From IMG/VR virus record IMGVR_UViG_3300035099_000147, positions 1 to 44,072 of that record: a stretch of 44,072 nt of DNA; one strand, given 5' to 3'. The notes beneath the pieces are model-generated. The model searched no databases, was not told the origin of the DNA, and saw only the letters and a program-made list of their open reading frames with translations. This DNA comes from a virus. Both the position numbers and the translations under genes were made by a program. Positions 6,762 to 43,562 of the stretch are shown here, one piece after another. The stretch's first letter is position 1; every line of letters begins with the position of its first letter.

Positions 6762-7628
6762 TTAATTCCAGACAAAACTTAATTTACCAATAAATCTTGA
6801 AGCAGCGGCAATTGCTGCACCAGCAAACATTAAAACTCCCAAGAATGCTTCATCTTTTATTTCTGGTAATCTAACACAGTCGATTAGTTGATGCTGCTCA
6901 ACGGAGCTGTAATAGTAAAGGAAAGGTAACGAAGCCAAAGGTTTACATAAAACTAAACTGCCATATCCAGCACCCATGCCAGCATCAAACGTTATACTCT
7001 CAACTTTTCTTATCCCAGTATCTCCCTCAGCTAATGGAATAAAAGGTCCATATTGAGATGCTAAAGTGCCCGCAGGTAAAACTTGTGTAACGATTGACGA
7101 TGGAGTGATTTGTAACGTGTAAGGAGTCGTTTTTCCCTCTACTCCATCCTGATTTGTGTATTGCATTGTCATACCAATTTGCGATGCACCTGCCTCAATT
7201 TGACATACAAGAAATGCTTTAACTCCTGCTCCGTCTGTGTATCTTGGTAAGGTAACAGTATTATCCAATACTTGCTCATTTGTTGAATCAAGGTCGATAA
7301 AAGGATAAAATACTAAGTAGTCGCACAGGATAAAGTAAGAAGGATACCCTGTCGAAGAGGTGCTATCCATTCTTGCCAGAAGTAGATGTTTCTTTTTTGG
7401 ACTTACATTTGTCCCATGCCACAATCCCCCAACACTCTTATACCATAATTTTGTGGCTGCCAATGCGGTTCCAACATATGGATTGCTACCATAATGACCA
7501 CCAAGCATACTTCCATCATACCAGCGACCAGCGGTCGCGGCAGTTCCACCAAAGTTCTTATGGAAGTAACAATCCCAGTATCGACCTTCGTCAATGGATT
7601 TGACAATATCCCGAACAGTTAAGGCCAT
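6762..7628 (-). CDS. Virion protein, paralogue 1 of a tandem family
   Basis: 288 aa. The ATG at 7628 overlaps the previous stop as TAATG, which favours this start over an in-frame one nine codons earlier. It is the most divergent of the three copies but keeps GRWYDGSMLGGHYGSN, LWHGTNVSPKKKH, CDYLVFYPFID, LPRYTDGAGVKAFLV, YTNQDGVEG, YGPFIPLAEGDTGIRKV, LVLCKPL and KDEAFLGVLMF. Being first in transcription order, it may be the ancestral copy; that is a guess. Confidence 0.7.
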   Translation of the reverse strand: MALTVRDIVKSIDEGRYWDCYFHKNFGGTAATAGRWYDGSMLGGHYGSNPYVGTALAATKLWYKSVGGLWHGTNVSPKKKHLLLARMDSTSSTGYPSYFILCDYLVFYPFIDLDSTNEQVLDNTVTLPRYTDGAGVKAFLVCQIEAGASQIGMTMQYTNQDGVEGKTTPYTLQITPSSIVTQVLPAGTLASQYGPFIPLAEGDTGIRKVESITFDAGMGAGYGSLVLCKPLASLPFLYYYSSVEQHQLIDCVRLPEIKDEAFLGVLMFAGAAIAAASRFIGKLSFVWN

Positions 7629-31638: not shown

Positions 31639-31904
31639 GACGTTGTCGCCAGTATTGTCGCCCCGGCAATACTAATAGATACCTCGGTATCAATCTTCTC
31701 TGCAATTTCATCTGGTGTCATTCCTTTGTCTGCCATTTCCCTTATCTGCTCAGATAAATTTCTCATCCACCGAGAACGACCATTCAAATCTTCAAAGAGC
31801 GTGGTACGAAAAAGAAAGTTTTTGTTTTGCCATTTCCACGTAACACCGCTTAATATTCTAAAATTATTCAGAATGTTGTACTCGCTCCAATCATTCTTTT
31901 TCAT
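31635..31904 (-). CDS. Small hypothetical protein coupled to terminase
   Basis: 89 aa. ATG 31904 overlaps the terminase stop (ATGA), which sets the start rather than an in-frame ATG 15 codons earlier. The first half is beta-like and aromatic (DWSEYNILNNFRILSGVTWK). The second half holds an HTH-like helix pair (RWMRNLSEQIREMADKGMTP, DEIAEKIDTEVSI). The C-terminus is hydrophobic. It could bind DNA near the terminase; inference only. Confidence 0.55.
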   Translation of the reverse strand: MKKNDWSEYNILNNFRILSGVTWKWQNKNFLFRTTLFEDLNGRSRWMRNLSEQIREMADKGMTPDEIAEKIDTEVSISIAGATILATTS

Positions 31905-33466
31905 AATAACTCCGGGTAAAGCAAGCCAGAAGCATGTTGTCTGGCCATGCACTCATAATTGTAGGCGTGCCGGTAGTGGTCGTCGCCGAGTTTCACGTAG
32001 ATATATCTTTTGGACCCTGTCTCTTCTTCCTCTTCCAGCTTCTTTCCGACATTGTGGAGATGGTTCGCAAACGTCCTTACTTCATCGCACTCTTTGGGGA
32101 GAATGATCTGTGCGAGCTTTATTTCCTGATGAGAAGCGTCCAGGGACTCTGTTCTATTGCAGGTGACAACCAGCTTTTCTTCGTCCCATTTATAGCTTCC
32201 TCTTTGGTGTTCGCTGTAAAAATTTAGAAATACTCTTCCCTTGAATTTCTCTGCAAGCTTTCTTGCATTTCTCATTTCTGGTTGAGCATCAATGACAGCT
32301 CTCGTGACATTAAAATTATCCATAAGAGGGTAGATTTCTTCCCAATCCTTGTAAACATTCATGTGAATAAGCTGTCCGGAATATCCTGGATGGTCTTTCC
32401 CGATTACTACATGAAGGCCCTTCCCTTGGTCAACCCCCATGAAGCAGGGCACTTTTTCGCCAGAAGACATCCCTTCATCTCCGCAAAGTGCCAACACCTC
32501 CTCAACTGACAACCTGTTTTCAGCTTCAATGTAAGGTACTCCGATCTTTAGATTGTAAAAGTCTTTCAGGTTATTCGTTGTCCTGAATTTATGAAGAATC
32601 TCGGCTGGTGAAACAAACTGAGAATAGAGCTGAGAATACTGCCTTCCGCTCCTCTCCTTCACACGGGGCTTCATTGCAACCCATTCTCCCCTGGCTGGAT
32701 TTAGGGCTCTACCGCACTTTCGGCAGGCACGGATCACCTTGTTTTTGGTCTCCACAAGGCATTTCGGAAAGTCCTTTACCAGGTCGTTCCATTGACCGCA
32801 TCCGCACTTTAGGAGCCAGTATTTCTGGTCAGAAAGCAAAAAATGTCTATGGATTCCGTAGTCGGGGAGAGTAGGATTTGAGAGCATCATCTTTTCTCTG
32901 TAAACAGAGTGAGACATCCTTTCATCGGCCATGTCCACGGCGGTCTGAGCTGCCTCGTCCAATTCGTCATAAACGATGAAGTCGCCAGGAACTGATTTAA
33001 GGCCTACCCTGCTTTTCATCCCTCGGAGATAGAGAAAGCAGTTCCAGATTCGCTTGATATTTGTTGCATCGGTGTCTCTCACCCACTCACCGATCGTATC
33101 AGGATTTTCGTTAATCAAAGGATCGATTCTTGATTTTGTGAAGTCACTGACATCTGTCCTGGACGGGAAAAGATAAAGGATCCCACGGAAGCCACGATAC
33201 CTTCCGTTGTAAACCACCCTCAGCATGGCTCTGGTGGTGAGACCCATTTGGGCAGATTTCATGTCAACCTGGAACGGATGATTGTCTTCGTAGGGTTCTT
33301 TTAGATATTCATGTTTGTCAAAACTGAAGGGGAATCCATCGACCATGATTGGCTTCTGGACCCAATCTGAAAATTTGATGATAGAACGAGTGTCCTCACG
33401 CTCGTACTGGCGAGATAGCGGTTGAAGAATTGAATCTAACAGGTCTATCCTTGCATTCACATTCAC
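31901..33466 (-). CDS. terL: Terminase large subunit (GpA-like)
   Basis: 521 aa. The motor packages DNA through the portal and cuts it. The ATPase part has a Walker A-like KSAQMGLTT at 70-78 and a Walker B FIVYDELDE at 163-171. A zinc-ribbon-like pair CGCG (221-224) and CRKCG (248-252) is typical of the lambda GpA group. The nuclease part has acidic residues in GVDQGKG (D346) and VIDAQPE (D393) and a DDHYRHAYNY motif at the C-terminus. The start is GTG 33466, overlapping the stop of the Gly/Arg-rich gene as GTGA. Confidence 0.85.
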   Translation of the reverse strand: MNVNARIDLLDSILQPLSRQYEREDTRSIIKFSDWVQKPIMVDGFPFSFDKHEYLKEPYEDNHPFQVDMKSAQMGLTTRAMLRVVYNGRYRGFRGILYLFPSRTDVSDFTKSRIDPLINENPDTIGEWVRDTDATNIKRIWNCFLYLRGMKSRVGLKSVPGDFIVYDELDEAAQTAVDMADERMSHSVYREKMMLSNPTLPDYGIHRHFLLSDQKYWLLKCGCGQWNDLVKDFPKCLVETKNKVIRACRKCGRALNPARGEWVAMKPRVKERSGRQYSQLYSQFVSPAEILHKFRTTNNLKDFYNLKIGVPYIEAENRLSVEEVLALCGDEGMSSGEKVPCFMGVDQGKGLHVVIGKDHPGYSGQLIHMNVYKDWEEIYPLMDNFNVTRAVIDAQPEMRNARKLAEKFKGRVFLNFYSEHQRGSYKWDEEKLVVTCNRTESLDASHQEIKLAQIILPKECDEVRTFANHLHNVGKKLEEEEETGSKRYIYVKLGDDHYRHAYNYECMARQHASGLLYPELL

Positions 33467-36832: not shown

Positions 36833-36861
36833 GATTTACACAATCAAAAATATAAAGTCAA
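36833..36861 (-). promoter_or_regulatory. Possible sigma-70-type promoter for the late block
   Basis: On the minus strand TTGACT and TAAATC are 17 bases apart. The -35 is good and the -10 weak. The transcript would begin only a few bases before ATG 36823. No other candidate was seen upstream. Weak call. Confidence 0.25.
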
Positions 36862-37553
36862 GAAAAATCGACATCCACCTGAAAAAAAATTGGCTGACAC
36901 CCTAAATTTTAAGACGTTTCACGTGGAACATCCTAAATATTTCCAATACATGACACGTCACGGAGGGGGGAGGGAACCAATCGCAGAGGGGTCGCCCCGC
37001 CGAAGGGGTCGTTGACGACATGGGCGTATGGGTAGGCCGCCCCGCCCGCCCGCAGTTCACATAATTTTTCACACACGCCCGCCCGCCCGCAAGCCAATGA
37101 AATCATTTAAGAAACCTCGCCCGCCTAAAGTTAACATTATATACATTATCAGACCCTCGAAGGCCAGGAACAACCCCGAACCGATCACCCAAGAACAGAG
37201 AGCCAGAACTTTTAAACCTTCACAAACTCCACGCACTCAACTCCCCCCGCCCCCCGATCTCCCAGCCTGCAGGCCGAACCAACAGGACGACAACCCGACA
37301 GTATGCGAGTCACTTTCCCCTTTGACCCTTCCGCAGACAAACCCCCTCACCCCTCTTTACGTATCCAGACCGCGCCCGCTCCTTTGAATAGAGTAAATAC
37401 TCTTTACCCGGAGGACAGGACACCCGCCCCTTACACTTATCCCCCCTTTATCCCCCCTTTTCTCTTCCCCTCCCTCTTATGGTAAGCGACAGAGAAGGAC
37501 TTCCGAAGGGAAAGAAGGGAAGGATAATAAGAAGGCAGGGAGTTTACAAAAAA
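36862..37553. other. Gene-free control region, C-rich
   Basis: About 700 bases with no convincing gene. It holds the parS-like site at 36915-36930, two GGGGTCG copies flanking a CCCC..GGGG stem near 36985-37010, two CCGCCCGCCCGC-type blocks at about 37037-37055 and 37077-37091, a small palindrome AGAGTA-AA-TACTCT at 37390-37403, and long runs poor in G on the plus strand (37100-37480). A frame at 37028-37387 exists but lacks a ribosome binding site. Could include a replication or packaging site; unproven. Confidence 0.5.
36915..36930 (+). promoter_or_regulatory. parS-like centromere site
   Basis: CGTTTCACGTGGAACA differs at one base from the parS form TGTTTCACGTGGAACA and at two from TGTTTCACGTGAAACA. 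ParB binds parS and spreads along DNA. The two halves are nearly palindromic around CACGTG. Flanking CCTAAAT occurs on both sides. No ParA or ParB gene is in this window. Confidence 0.6.
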
Positions 37554-37667
37554 TTGTCACTTTGTTATAAAATTTTTATCTTTTGTAGAATCAAGTAGTT
37601 AAGTGATTTATCAACATTTCCACAGGACGTAAATTGTCAGTCTGTTGTGAAATGCGACAGATGACAA
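37554..37667 (+). promoter_or_regulatory. Three TTGTCA-type activator half-sites
   Basis: TTGTCACTTTGT at 37554, TTGTCAGTCTGT at 37634 and, inverted, ACAGATGACAA at 37657. The last two face each other as a dyad over 34 bases. They lie about 45-155 bases upstream of the sigma-54 -24 element, the usual distance for enhancer-binding-protein sites. Which activator binds is unknown. Confidence 0.5.
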
Positions 37668-37708
37668 AGTTTGCGCTATTGAAATCATTGAGGAATTTTG
37701 TTTAAGTC

Positions 37709-37724
37709 TGGCACGCAGCTTGCT
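37709..37724 (+). promoter_or_regulatory. Sigma-54 promoter of the early operon
   Basis: TGGCACGCAGCTTGCT matches the consensus TGGCACG-N4-TTGCW fully, with GG at 37710-37711 and GC at 37722-37723, ten bases between. Transcription would start near 37735, rightward into the MoxR operon. Such promoters need host RpoN and an ATP-driven activator. The surrounding DNA is AT-rich. Confidence 0.85.
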
Positions 37725-37734
37725 TATTAAAGGT

Positions 37735-37868
37735 AAAAACAATGAAGGGGTTGGCTGGATACCCGATAACCAGCCCGTGCGGAGATTAACCCACTCTGCA
37801 TCCCACGATACGGAGTGACACTTGACGGGTTAACCCACTCCAAAGCCAACAGAAAGGAAGGGAAGATA
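37735..37868 (+). promoter_or_regulatory. Structured 5' leader of the early operon
   Basis: Between the sigma-54 start and ATG 37869. GTTGGCT (37750-37756) pairs with AGCCAAC (37844-37850), closing the leader. Inside is GGCTGG/CCAGCC (37753-37758, 37770-37775), a competing stem, and two exact copies of TTAACCCACTC (37786-37796 and 37830-37840). It may be a riboregulator or protein-binding operator. No known riboswitch class is recognised. AAAGGAAGGGAAG precedes the start. Confidence 0.5.
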
Positions 37869-38876
37869 ATGAAACCATCTCTTTTAAAGGAATGCCTAAA
37901 AACAGCAATTAGAGAGAAGGATAACCTATTAATTATCTCATCCCCAGGAGTGGGAAAGACCGCAATCACGATTCAGGCCGCAGAGGAAGAAAAGGCCGAC
38001 TTAATTATAAGTCACCCTGTAGTAAGCGACCCAACAGATTATAAAGGTTTTCCCTGGGTTTTCACCGACAAGGAAGGGAACCCAAAGGCAACCTTTATAC
38101 CTTTTGACGATCTGGAAAAACTAATAAAAGCCACAAGGCGAACTGTTTATTTGCTTGACGACCTCGGACAAGCCCCCGCAGGAGTGCAAGCCCCCGCCAT
38201 GCAGTTAATCCACGGAGGCAGGATAAACGGCCACCGAGTAAGTCCGGAAGTGGTTTTTTTCGCTTGTTCAAACAGACGACAAGACCTTGCAGGAGTAAGC
38301 GGAATTTTAGAACCAGTTAAGTCAAGGTTTAAAATAATTCACCTCGACGCCGACCTTGATGATTTTTGTAAATATGCACTTGAAAATAACTTTTCCTTCG
38401 AAGTGATAGCTTTTAATAGATGGAAAGGAAACGCCCTTTTAGACTTCAAACCAACGAAAGACATGGTAAATAGCCCTTGCCCTCGGACTTGGGAGCACGT
38501 AAGCCAAATTTTACAACATAAATACCCGCCCGAAGCGGAACTTGAACTAATAAGCGGAAGCATAGGAGAAGGCATGGCCATTGAATTCATGGCCTTTCTC
38601 AAAATAGCCCGGTCCTTGCCCGATCCCGACTTAATAGTTTTAAGACCCGACGAAGTTAATGTACCAAAAGACCCCTCAACTCTTTATGCCCTTTGCGGAG
38701 CATTGACACAAAGAGCAAGTGAGCAAACTTTTTCTAACATTGTGAAATACGCTAACCGACTCCCTTCGGACTTCAGCGTTATGTTGATAGTGGACACAAT
38801 CACCAAAAAGAAAAACCTGGTTAAAACAAGGGAATTCATTGAGTGGAATTTAAAACACCAAGATGTTTTAGTATAA
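37869..38876 (+). CDS. MoxR-type AAA+ ATPase
   Basis: 335 aa. ATG 37869 is chosen for the ribosome binding site; a start 18 codons earlier would lie in the leader structure. Walker A SPGVGKT at 25-31, Walker B VYLLDD at 93-98, a GQAPAGVQAPAMQLIHGGRI helix-turn as in MoxR/dynein-type AAA+, sensor 1 ACSNRR near 132-137, and SRF arginine finger region near 151. MoxR proteins act as chaperone-like motors with VWA partners; the VWA partner is two genes downstream. Probably unfolds or activates a target early in infection; the target is unknown. Confidence 0.85.
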   Translation: MKPSLLKECLKTAIREKDNLLIISSPGVGKTAITIQAAEEEKADLIISHPVVSDPTDYKGFPWVFTDKEGNPKATFIPFDDLEKLIKATRRTVYLLDDLGQAPAGVQAPAMQLIHGGRINGHRVSPEVVFFACSNRRQDLAGVSGILEPVKSRFKIIHLDADLDDFCKYALENNFSFEVIAFNRWKGNALLDFKPTKDMVNSPCPRTWEHVSQILQHKYPPEAELELISGSIGEGMAIEFMAFLKIARSLPDPDLIVLRPDEVNVPKDPSTLYALCGALTQRASEQTFSNIVKYANRLPSDFSVMLIVDTITKKKNLVKTREFIEWNLKHQDVLV

Positions 38877-38907: not shown

Positions 38908-39753
38908 ATGAGTATTAAAATCACAGAAAAGGCGATGTTAGTTACTTTAAAAATAGGCCAATACACAGGGAAGAAACAGGACAAGAAGGCAGAGCAAACC
39001 ATTGATAACACCTTCCAGACCCACGACGCAGGGACTTATCGAAAGTTTGTTATAGGCAAAGGCCACCTTGACGAAATCACCAAATTGACCAACGAAATAC
39101 GAACCTATCATTACACGAATACTTTACCCTGGACGGACGAAGGGAAACGCCTTTTACCTTGTGACAACTACCAGGCATATACCGACCAAATAAGAAGATA
39201 CAAGACTCTCTTTAACGAGAAGGCAGATAGTTTTAAAGCGATATACCCCGATCTCATCAAAGAAGCCCAGAGCAAATTAAACGGACTTTTTAACCCGCAG
39301 GACTACGCTGATCCCAACACGATAAGGGAAAAGTTTTATATGGAATTAACTTTTGACCCGATCCCGGAAGAAGGAGATATAAGGGTTAATATTCAACAGG
39401 ACGAACTTGACCAATTAAACAAAGACCTTGAAACCAGAAAAAACAACGCAATAGCCCAAGCCATGAAAGACCTTTATCTCCGACTCCACGACTGCATAAA
39501 ACACGCCCAGGAACGCTTAAGCGATCCAAAGGCCATATTTAGGGACAGTTTGATTGATAACATTATTGACCTTGTGAAGATATTGCCAGCCCTTAATGTT
39601 ACCAACGATCCCACCCTTGAAAAGTTGAGAGAAGAAGTAAGCGAAAAATTAACGAAGTATCAACCCGACACCTTGAGAGAATACCCGACAGCAAGACAGG
39701 AAACCGCAAACAACGCCAGCGAAATTTTAAAGAAAATGGAAGGACTTTATTGA
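38908..39753 (+). CDS. DUF3150-like protein
   Basis: 281 aa. Begins MSIKITEKAMLVTLKIGQYT, followed by GKKQDKKAEQ; the pattern of a short N-terminal strand, 'G..K.D', a 'K..L(..)I......R..Y...T.PW....R.LP' stretch (IRTYHYTNTLPWTDEGKRLL) and long helices matches DUF3150, a phage family found between MoxR ATPases and VWA proteins. The rest is coiled coil (QQDELDQLNKDLETRKNNAI). GGAAGG precedes the ATG. It may be an adaptor or substrate of the ATPase. No catalytic motif. Confidence 0.7.
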   Translation: MSIKITEKAMLVTLKIGQYTGKKQDKKAEQTIDNTFQTHDAGTYRKFVIGKGHLDEITKLTNEIRTYHYTNTLPWTDEGKRLLPCDNYQAYTDQIRRYKTLFNEKADSFKAIYPDLIKEAQSKLNGLFNPQDYADPNTIREKFYMELTFDPIPEEGDIRVNIQQDELDQLNKDLETRKNNAIAQAMKDLYLRLHDCIKHAQERLSDPKAIFRDSLIDNIIDLVKILPALNVTNDPTLEKLREEVSEKLTKYQPDTLREYPTARQETANNASEILKKMEGLY

Positions 39754-39754
39754 T

Positions 39755-40960
39755 ATGGAAAAACTAACGGCCCAGAAAAAAATTGAAAAAGCAAAAGTAT
39801 CGCTTTATCTTGACCAGCCTTTTTTTGCTTCAATCCTTTTCAGATTTGAAATGATTGAAGATAGCGCAGGGATAAAGACCCGAACGATGGCCACCGATGG
39901 GAAAGTAATTTATTTTTACCCGCCCTTTGTTAATTCGATCACCCTGGAAGAAGTTAAAGGAGTGTTAGCCCACGAAGTAACCCACGTTATTTTATTACAT
40001 CCCTTTAGGCGACAAGGCAGAGAGCTCAAAAAATTTAATATAGCTTGCGATTATGCCGTTAACCCAATAATAAAAGACGCAGGTTTTAAACTTTGTGAAG
40101 GCCACCTTGACGACCCGCAATATCACAACATGGAAGCGGAGACAATTTATAACAAACTGCCACACGACCCCCAGGGACAGACACAGCCAGGCCAGGGACA
40201 GCCCCAGGGAAAGCCACAGGGACAAGGCCAGGGACAGCCCGAACCTTGCCCCGATCCTGGAAATATGGGAGGAGTGATTGACTACCCAGGAACGCCCGAC
40301 CAAACTAAACAGGCCGAACTCGAACAAAAAATGTATAACGTCCAAACTGCCCAAATATCAAAAAAACAAGGCCACCTCCCGGGAAGTTTTGAAAGATTAA
40401 TAGAGGAATTGACCGAACCAAGAATAAATTGGAAGGAAAAACTTGCAGAGTTTATTGACAACCGATCCAGAAACGACTTTACATGGACGATCCCAAACCG
40501 AAGATATTTAGGCCAGGGATTTTATCTTCCATCATTATTAAGCCCCGAATTAGGAGAAATAATTTGCTTAATTGACGCAAGTGGAAGCATAAGCCCCCAG
40601 GACTTAACCGACCTTGTAAGCGAAATTAAAGGTATCCTTGAATTATACGAAGGAACAGAACTTAAAATAATCTTTTTTGACACGAAGGCCACCGATCCCT
40701 TTACGATCCAGAACGACACCGACATTAAAAATTTAAAACTTTCAAACCTCGGAGGAGGAACAAACTATAAACCGCCTTTTGAAAAAATCGAAAAGGAAGG
40801 ACTTGACCCAAAGGCAATCATAATATTGACCGATGGACAATGCAATAACTTTCCAAAGACACCTGATCAGCCCGCCCTATGGATAATCAAAGGGAAAGAA
40901 GATTATAAAAGATTCAAGCCCCCATTCGGTCAGACCCTTTTAATGGACGATCAGGCCTAA
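39755..40960 (+). CDS. Metallopeptidase-VWA fusion protein
   Basis: 401 aa, two bases after the DUF3150-like gene. Residues 60-135 form a zinc peptidase-like domain with HEVTH (73-77) and a following NIACDYAVNPII segment with an acidic residue. Residues 138-165 are a Gln/Gly/Pro-rich linker (QGQTQPGQGQPQGKPQGQGQ). Residues 215-401 are a VWA-like (DUF2201 type) domain with a full MIDAS: DASGS (D274, S276, S278), T336 in GGGTNY and D360 in ILTDG. VWA proteins bind targets through the metal and work with MoxR ATPases. Peptidase activity is likely but unproven. Confidence 0.85.
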   Translation: MEKLTAQKKIEKAKVSLYLDQPFFASILFRFEMIEDSAGIKTRTMATDGKVIYFYPPFVNSITLEEVKGVLAHEVTHVILLHPFRRQGRELKKFNIACDYAVNPIIKDAGFKLCEGHLDDPQYHNMEAETIYNKLPHDPQGQTQPGQGQPQGKPQGQGQGQPEPCPDPGNMGGVIDYPGTPDQTKQAELEQKMYNVQTAQISKKQGHLPGSFERLIEELTEPRINWKEKLAEFIDNRSRNDFTWTIPNRRYLGQGFYLPSLLSPELGEIICLIDASGSISPQDLTDLVSEIKGILELYEGTELKIIFFDTKATDPFTIQNDTDIKNLKLSNLGGGTNYKPPFEKIEKEGLDPKAIIILTDGQCNNFPKTPDQPALWIIKGKEDYKRFKPPFGQTLLMDDQA

Positions 40961-43320: not shown

Positions 43321-43333
43321 ATCTTCTCCTTTC

Positions 43334-43423
43334 AATAAGGCAAGTCGGGCAGGATTCTCCACTGGTATCGTTGTTCCTGCATTTAATGACGGAGAATGGC
43401 TTTCGCCTCCGACCTGCCTTATT
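43334..43423 (-). other. Structured leader upstream of 43096-43320
   Basis: A 15-bp inverted repeat (AATAAGGCAAGTCGG at 43334 and CCGACCTGCCTTATT at 43409; one mismatch) encloses a second perfect 7-bp pair (ATTCTCC at 43354, GGAGAAT at 43391). The RNA stem ends right before the ribosome binding site. A related element with GCAGGTCG/CGACCTGC lies at 43812-43929. May control translation. Confidence 0.5.
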
Positions 43424-43562
43424 CTTCTAATCTTTCTACTTCGATGTCAGGAACAGCATAATCTACCCATAATTTCCACGCCTGAGTTATAGCTTCTGAT
43501 TCTGAATTAGATTCCACATCAAAGAAAACTTGATTTACTTGATCAAAATAAATTCTAAACAT
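43419..43562 (-). CDS. 47-aa hypothetical protein
   Basis: ATG 43562; frame of 47 codons, MFRIYFDQVNQVFFDVESNS onward, with a helical WKLWVDYAVPDIEVERLEE end. Coding look and tight spacing with neighbours support it. The ribosome binding site is poor. Function unknown. Confidence 0.45.
   Translation of the reverse strand: MFRIYFDQVNQVFFDVESNSESEAITQAWKLWVDYAVPDIEVERLEE

Follow-up and report, generated by a model that had tools for sequence, protein, structure and literature searches.

A viral DNA of 44,072 nucleotides (IMG/VR record IMGVR_UViG_3300035099_000147; "the window" denotes this whole stretch, which was analysed at full length) carries, between two divergent gene modules, what is very probably a sigma-54 promoter (37709-37724, + strand). 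The account favoured here, with moderate confidence, is that it serves a rightward, early-side operon and depends on a host activator of the PilR type. The sequences support the promoter match, its conservation and substitution pattern, the spacing of the activator box, the corresponding box regulon in genomes of the host group and the lack of a phage activator gene; we infer the identity of the activator, the part played by IHF, the early timing and the dependence of the infection on the promoter.

A probable sigma-54 promoter between divergent modules

The 16-bp site, TGGCACGCAGCTTGCT, is the sole match without mismatches to TGGCACN5TTGCW in the window, against 0.039 such matches expected on both strands from a first-order model (0.00014 per 300-bp gap on one strand). 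Its -24 (TGGCAC) and -12 (TTGCT) elements follow TGGCAY-N5-TTGCW with the invariant GG and GC at the right distance. The first-pass annotation had claimed both the full-consensus match and the GG-to-GC spacing, and was right on both, as on the coordinates. Given this spacing, transcription is predicted to start at about 37735, with a hairpin-containing leader (37735-37868, + strand; folding z -1.9).

The gap with the promoter is flanked by a leftward structural module (terminase, portal, capsid; terminase large subunit at 31901-33466, - strand, phrog_675) and a rightward operon encoding a MoxR-like ATPase (37869-38876, phrog_1297), a DUF3150-like protein (38908-39753, 27% identity to a DUF3150 protein of Synechococcus phage MinM2) and a VWA/DUF2201 protein (39755-40960, phrog_1314), all on the + strand. 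The ATPase and VWA genes also adjoin in Schitoviridae phages (e.g., Erwinia phage S6 and Alteromonas phage PT15-A5). A phage early operon had been claimed at this place; its early timing is something that we infer from the opposition to the structural genes and from the gene content behind the homologous promoter in another phage (L025). There the promoter is followed by genes whose products are a PurZ-like adenylosuccinate synthetase, an exonuclease, a helicase/primase-like protein and Sak4. The PurZ-like protein of that phage, of the 2-aminooxy type and encoded within the sigma-54-headed operon (L267, 8849-10063), hints at a 2-aminoadenine (Z) genome. Scans of viral contigs for close relatives, with the ATPase and VWA proteins as queries, found nothing. 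An alignment search with the ATPase returned 69 loci; in the nearest (L089), the ATPase gene is not preceded by a sigma-54 site. None of 35 terminase-relative records contains the VWA family.

Conservation of the regulatory block

The promoter belongs to a conserved block (37541-37724, + strand), slightly larger than the unit first proposed (37554-37724), which is present. In a three-way alignment the block is 87% identical to L277, a 60-kb phage, and 69% identical to L025 (E 1e-11), where it lies on the minus strand and where the alignment stops at the -12 box. The L025 terminase is 54-56% identical to that of the window. L277 was recovered by two pattern scans built on different elements, and its sample also yielded a record (L004) with a terminase that matches the window's at 100% identity over 364 aa. 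As the block is 87% identical in L277, yet no relative of the window terminase was found in the L277 record, it is a module moving between phages. The genes downstream differ among the three phages.

Conservation of the -24/-12 core in related phages had been named as a check on the promoter, and the core is indeed kept in L277 and L025. Within the 16 bp, the substitutions relative to the window are at positions 6, 8, 9, 11 and 16 in L277 (P 0.005) and at 6, 8 and 11 in L025 (P 0.06), and all eight fall where sigma-54 tolerates them. The invariant stretches of the alignment are TTATCnACATTTCnACAG, CGTAAATTGTCA, TGAAATCATTnAGGAnTT and the sigma-54 core. Judged from these alignments, the conserved block with its promoter is no chance match. 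No match to the 184-bp block exists in 291 genomes of the order Desulfobacterales, and INPHARED has only short ones; the 17-mer GAAATCATTRAGGAATT, searched alone, gave 97 stretches, nearly all unrelated. Three further hits of an element-plus-sigma-54 scan (L276, L278, and L279) apparently lie inside coding sequence and were taken as chance.

Another invariant element is TTATCAACATTTCCACAG (37608-37625, + strand), which consists of two DnaA-box-like 9-mers, TTATCAACA and ATTTCCACA, and could be part of an origin or a site for some other regulator. Two copies of GTTATCAACAG stand beside the sigma-54 site of L034, a terminase relative (7230-7275, - strand). Both observations would suit a block maintained for a different purpose, e.g., as a replication origin, and bearing only a chance likeness to sigma-54 promoters. 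This explanation is nevertheless most improbable, given the substitution pattern within the site, its recurrence in relatives, the end of the homology at the -12 box and the existence of other phages with box and sigma-54 site (see below).

The window also contains dispersed, hairpin-rich intergenic elements of about 90 bp (37745-37831, + strand, and 43324-43417), which recur in L277 (1653-1739, 8137-8230, and 8585-8614) and L178 (842-898); those of the window and L277 are 93% identical and border different genes. One of them (43324-43425, - strand) folds far better than shuffled sequences (z -4.6). No Rfam family was matched, the hairpin-rich elements included. A long C-rich and probably non-coding region with repeated CCCGCCCGC and C runs on the + strand lies between the divergent modules (36850-37540).

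Host group and sigma-54 sites in related phages

A search of a collection of species genomes with the terminase alignment gave 12 loci, 11 of them in MAGs labelled Desulfobacterales, Desulfobacteraceae, Desulfarculales or Deltaproteobacteria; the remaining one, in Omnitrophota (L264), was left out of the host inference. From these matches, the virus probably infects bacteria of the sulfate-reducer type (Desulfobacterota). The rpoN gene (Sigma54_DBD) is present in 10 of the 12 genomes, which is evidence at the level of the likely host group.

Five sites conforming to TGGCAYN5TTGCW occur in 37 related phage records, against none for the reversed control. Three of them (L013, L025, and L034) are located upstream of the terminase module and directed away from it, those of L025 and L034 in clear non-coding gaps; the orientation of the L013 site is less clear because the open reading frames overlap on both strands. 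Since the L013 and L034 sites have no activator box, the sigma-54 feature is broader than the box. Overall, the initial sigma-54 reading is supported, at the sequence level, by the conservation and substitution pattern, the recurrence on the early side, the presence of rpoN in the likely host group and an activator box that matches a host regulon.

Candidate activator boxes and neighbouring elements

Three TTGTCA half-sites stand within 114 bp (compared with 34 copies in 44 kb, both strands), namely at 37554-37559 and 37634-37639 on the + strand and, as the minus-strand copy TGACAA, at 37662-37667. All three homologues share an identical copy at 37634, whereas the one at 37554 reads TTGTTA in L277 and L025, and the third is TGACAA in L277 and absent from L025. 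The half-sites that had been placed at enhancer distance, and whose conservation had been put forward as a test, are positioned as described, but just one of the three has good support as an activator box and is invariant.

This copy constitutes the right half of box B, GGACGTAAATTGTCA (37625-37639, + strand), a candidate PilR-type dyad that matches TGAC-N5-TTGTCA at 9 of 10 bases, with the mismatch in its left half. Box B spans about -110 to -96, its end 69 bp upstream of the -24 box, and would thereby be an activator site at enhancer distance, within the 62-74 bp before -24 that this analysis derived as the PilR-type spacing from host pilin promoters. For uniform bases, simple arithmetic puts the chance of so close a match at those 13 positions at about 4e-4; scoring with a position weight matrix (PWM) over the whole region gives P of only 0.02-0.04, so a single copy of box B is no proof. 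The L025 box has three mismatches. A possible second box, box A, TTTACAAAAAATTGTCA (37543-37559, + strand), has a PWM score of 9.9, and its L025 counterpart, GTTGACAAACTTTGTTAC, scores 15-18. The third half-site belongs to a weak box, TGACAAAGTTTGCGC (37662-37676, + strand), not conserved in L025. Closer to the promoter, at about -55 to -38, an IHF-like element, TGAAATCATTGAGGAATT (37680-37697, + strand), is conserved in the three phages; its fit to the IHF consensus is only fair, and matches to WATCARNNNNTTR with one or two mismatches overlap it.

Box A overlaps the -35 element of a sigma-70-like promoter read from the sequence, TTTACA-N17-TATAAA (37543-37571, + strand), the L025 version of which is TTGACA-N17-TATAAA. 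An arrangement of two promoters, sigma-70-like and sigma-54, is possible. Early phage promoters usually rely on the housekeeping polymerase and hence fire at once, so the operon might be started mainly from the sigma-70-like site, with the sigma-54 site as a second, conditional start or a relic. However, the -35 element is not kept in L277 despite the 87% identical block and the intact sigma-54 core, and the -10 element, TATAAA, lacks the T at its last position and was not listed by a consensus scan; a leading role for the housekeeping polymerase is accordingly improbable.

Similar promoters in Desulfobacterota and in other phages

When 395 Desulfobacterota genomes were first scanned for the phage box TAAATTGTCA followed by a sigma-54 site at a distance of 55-85 bp, three matches emerged, two of them before type IV pilin genes (FTLIELMIVV), one near a PAS/histidine kinase gene. 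Both pilin matches are full dyads (GGTGACC-TAAAT-TGTCACC and AGTGACA-TAAAT-TGTCACT). The composite TGACN5TTGTCA plus sigma-54 site has 24 matches in 17 of the 395 genomes, with none for the reversed control and 0.14 expected by chance (an estimate for uniform bases). Twelve precede pilin genes, three PilB-like ATPase genes, one a PilZ protein gene and three genes of the lytic-transglycosylase type (SLT domain), and in 20 of the 21 host matches that could be parsed the gap from dyad to -24 is 62-74 bp. At these loci (L294-L317), TGACN5TTGTCA at that distance before sigma-54 sites makes a sharp regulon motif, which offers a ready definition of the PilR regulon for Desulfobacterota. A less selected sample of 30 loci, picked by pilin protein similarity, included 22 with a sigma-54 site; nine of these pilin promoters have TTGTCA or TGACAA 45-130 bp upstream of it, where shuffled sequences predict 1.07. 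The strict patterns of box plus sigma-54 site are absent from the scanned genomes that bear relatives (G039, G040, G045, and G050).

The pattern, as read from these genomes, is what the PilR regulon should look like. In P. aeruginosa, pilA is activated by PilR with sigma-54, and in Geobacter PilR sites are predicted before pilus, flagellar and cell-wall genes (PMC6058289). A comparison of the half-sites with motifs of bacterial enhancer-binding proteins in candidate hosts, as the first-pass annotation had advised, thus leads to the promoters of host type IV pili, and the tie that it had drawn to nitrogen, motility or stress narrows, by these box matches, to a PilR-type pilus regulon.

The sigma-54 promoter could be real and yet answer to a different NtrC-family protein of the host (of the nitrogen, envelope, flagellar or phage-shock type); its resemblance to pilin promoters would then come from a motif common to several activators. 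Box B is imperfect, some host matches precede non-pilus genes (a glutamine-synthetase-like ORF in L290, a TRAP-transporter-like ORF in L291, and lytic transglycosylases), and Desulfovibrio is rich in NtrC-family activators (PMC4641369). Against this, 15 of the 24 strict dyad matches concern pilin or PilB-like genes, the non-pilus matches L289-L291 lack the TGAC left half, and the half-sites of the flagellar FlrA-type repeat, yGTCA-N6-TGACr (PMC4641369), stand in the opposite order, by which that repeat was ruled out. The E. coli pspA promoter contains no TTGTCA box. Another activator is, on this evidence, rather unlikely.

A scan of viral contigs for GTAAATTGTCA-N62..80-sigma-54, for which about one chance match is estimated if the collection holds about 60 Gb, also recovered three phages (L280, L281, and L282). 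Features that the search did not demand are a second, perfect dyad in L281, TGACAAAAATTGTCA, and a second copy of AAATTGTCA in L282. The sites of L281 and L282 are opposite the terminase genes and that of L280 precedes a Sak4-helicase cluster, i.e., all three are on the early side; the terminases fall in other PHROG families (phrog_2, phrog_38). No protein with a Sigma54_activat domain (PF00158) was found in any of eight phage records, which may be incomplete, while the control was positive; the activator should therefore come from the host.

Proposed mechanism and relation to known systems

In the PilR-type reading, the RpoN holoenzyme would wait as a closed complex at 37709-37724, and a host NtrC-family activator of the type that governs type IV pili would bind the dyad at 37625-37639 and possibly also the second box at 37543-37559. 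A bend at the IHF-like element would carry the activator to the polymerase, ATP hydrolysis would then open the promoter, and the expression of the early genes would track the state of the host pilus regulator. A bolder and only tentative extension is that several lineages (the window/L277/L025 type, L280, L281, and L282) have placed an early operon under a copied host PilR/sigma-54 pilin promoter and thereby restrict infection to cells set for type IV pili, which are perhaps the entry route of the phages.

Since sigma-54 promoters depend on activators and the phage records yielded no gene for one, infection appears to be conditional on the state of the host. If the activator is PilR, expression of the phage genes would be tied to piliation in bacteria that matter to the sulfur and carbon cycles, and the outcome of infection would have a link to host state that can be tested. 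No report of a phage early promoter controlled by PilR or sigma-54 was found in the open-access full-text literature. Phage promoters that co-opt host regulators are known, such as those of Pho-box genes in cyanophages and those with CtrA/GcrA sites in Caulobacter phages. The dependence on a host signalling regulator is shared with them; the differences are that the polymerase form is here sigma-54 and that the predicted regulator governs type IV pili.

The pilA promoters of P. aeruginosa and Geobacter likewise combine a sigma-54 core with an upstream box for an NtrC-family protein (PMC6058289). Compared with them, and with the Desulfobacterota box TGAC-N5-TTGTCA at 62-74 bp before -24, the window copy precedes phage genes, has one left-half mismatch and is a predicted PilR site. 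The orp promoters of D. vulgaris also occupy a divergent gap in which both sigma-54 and sigma-70 elements are present, and their activator box is separated from the promoter by an IHF site at about -43; the element of the window is placed alike but only predicted, and the orp genes differ in forming a host operon with DVU2106 as activator (PMC3897727). In Salmonella, the Gifsy-1 prophage is similarly tied to a host sigma-54 regulon, that of RtcR and RpoN; there, however, prophage genes make the signal for a host operon (PMC9879122), whereas in the window a phage promoter appears to use the host activator.
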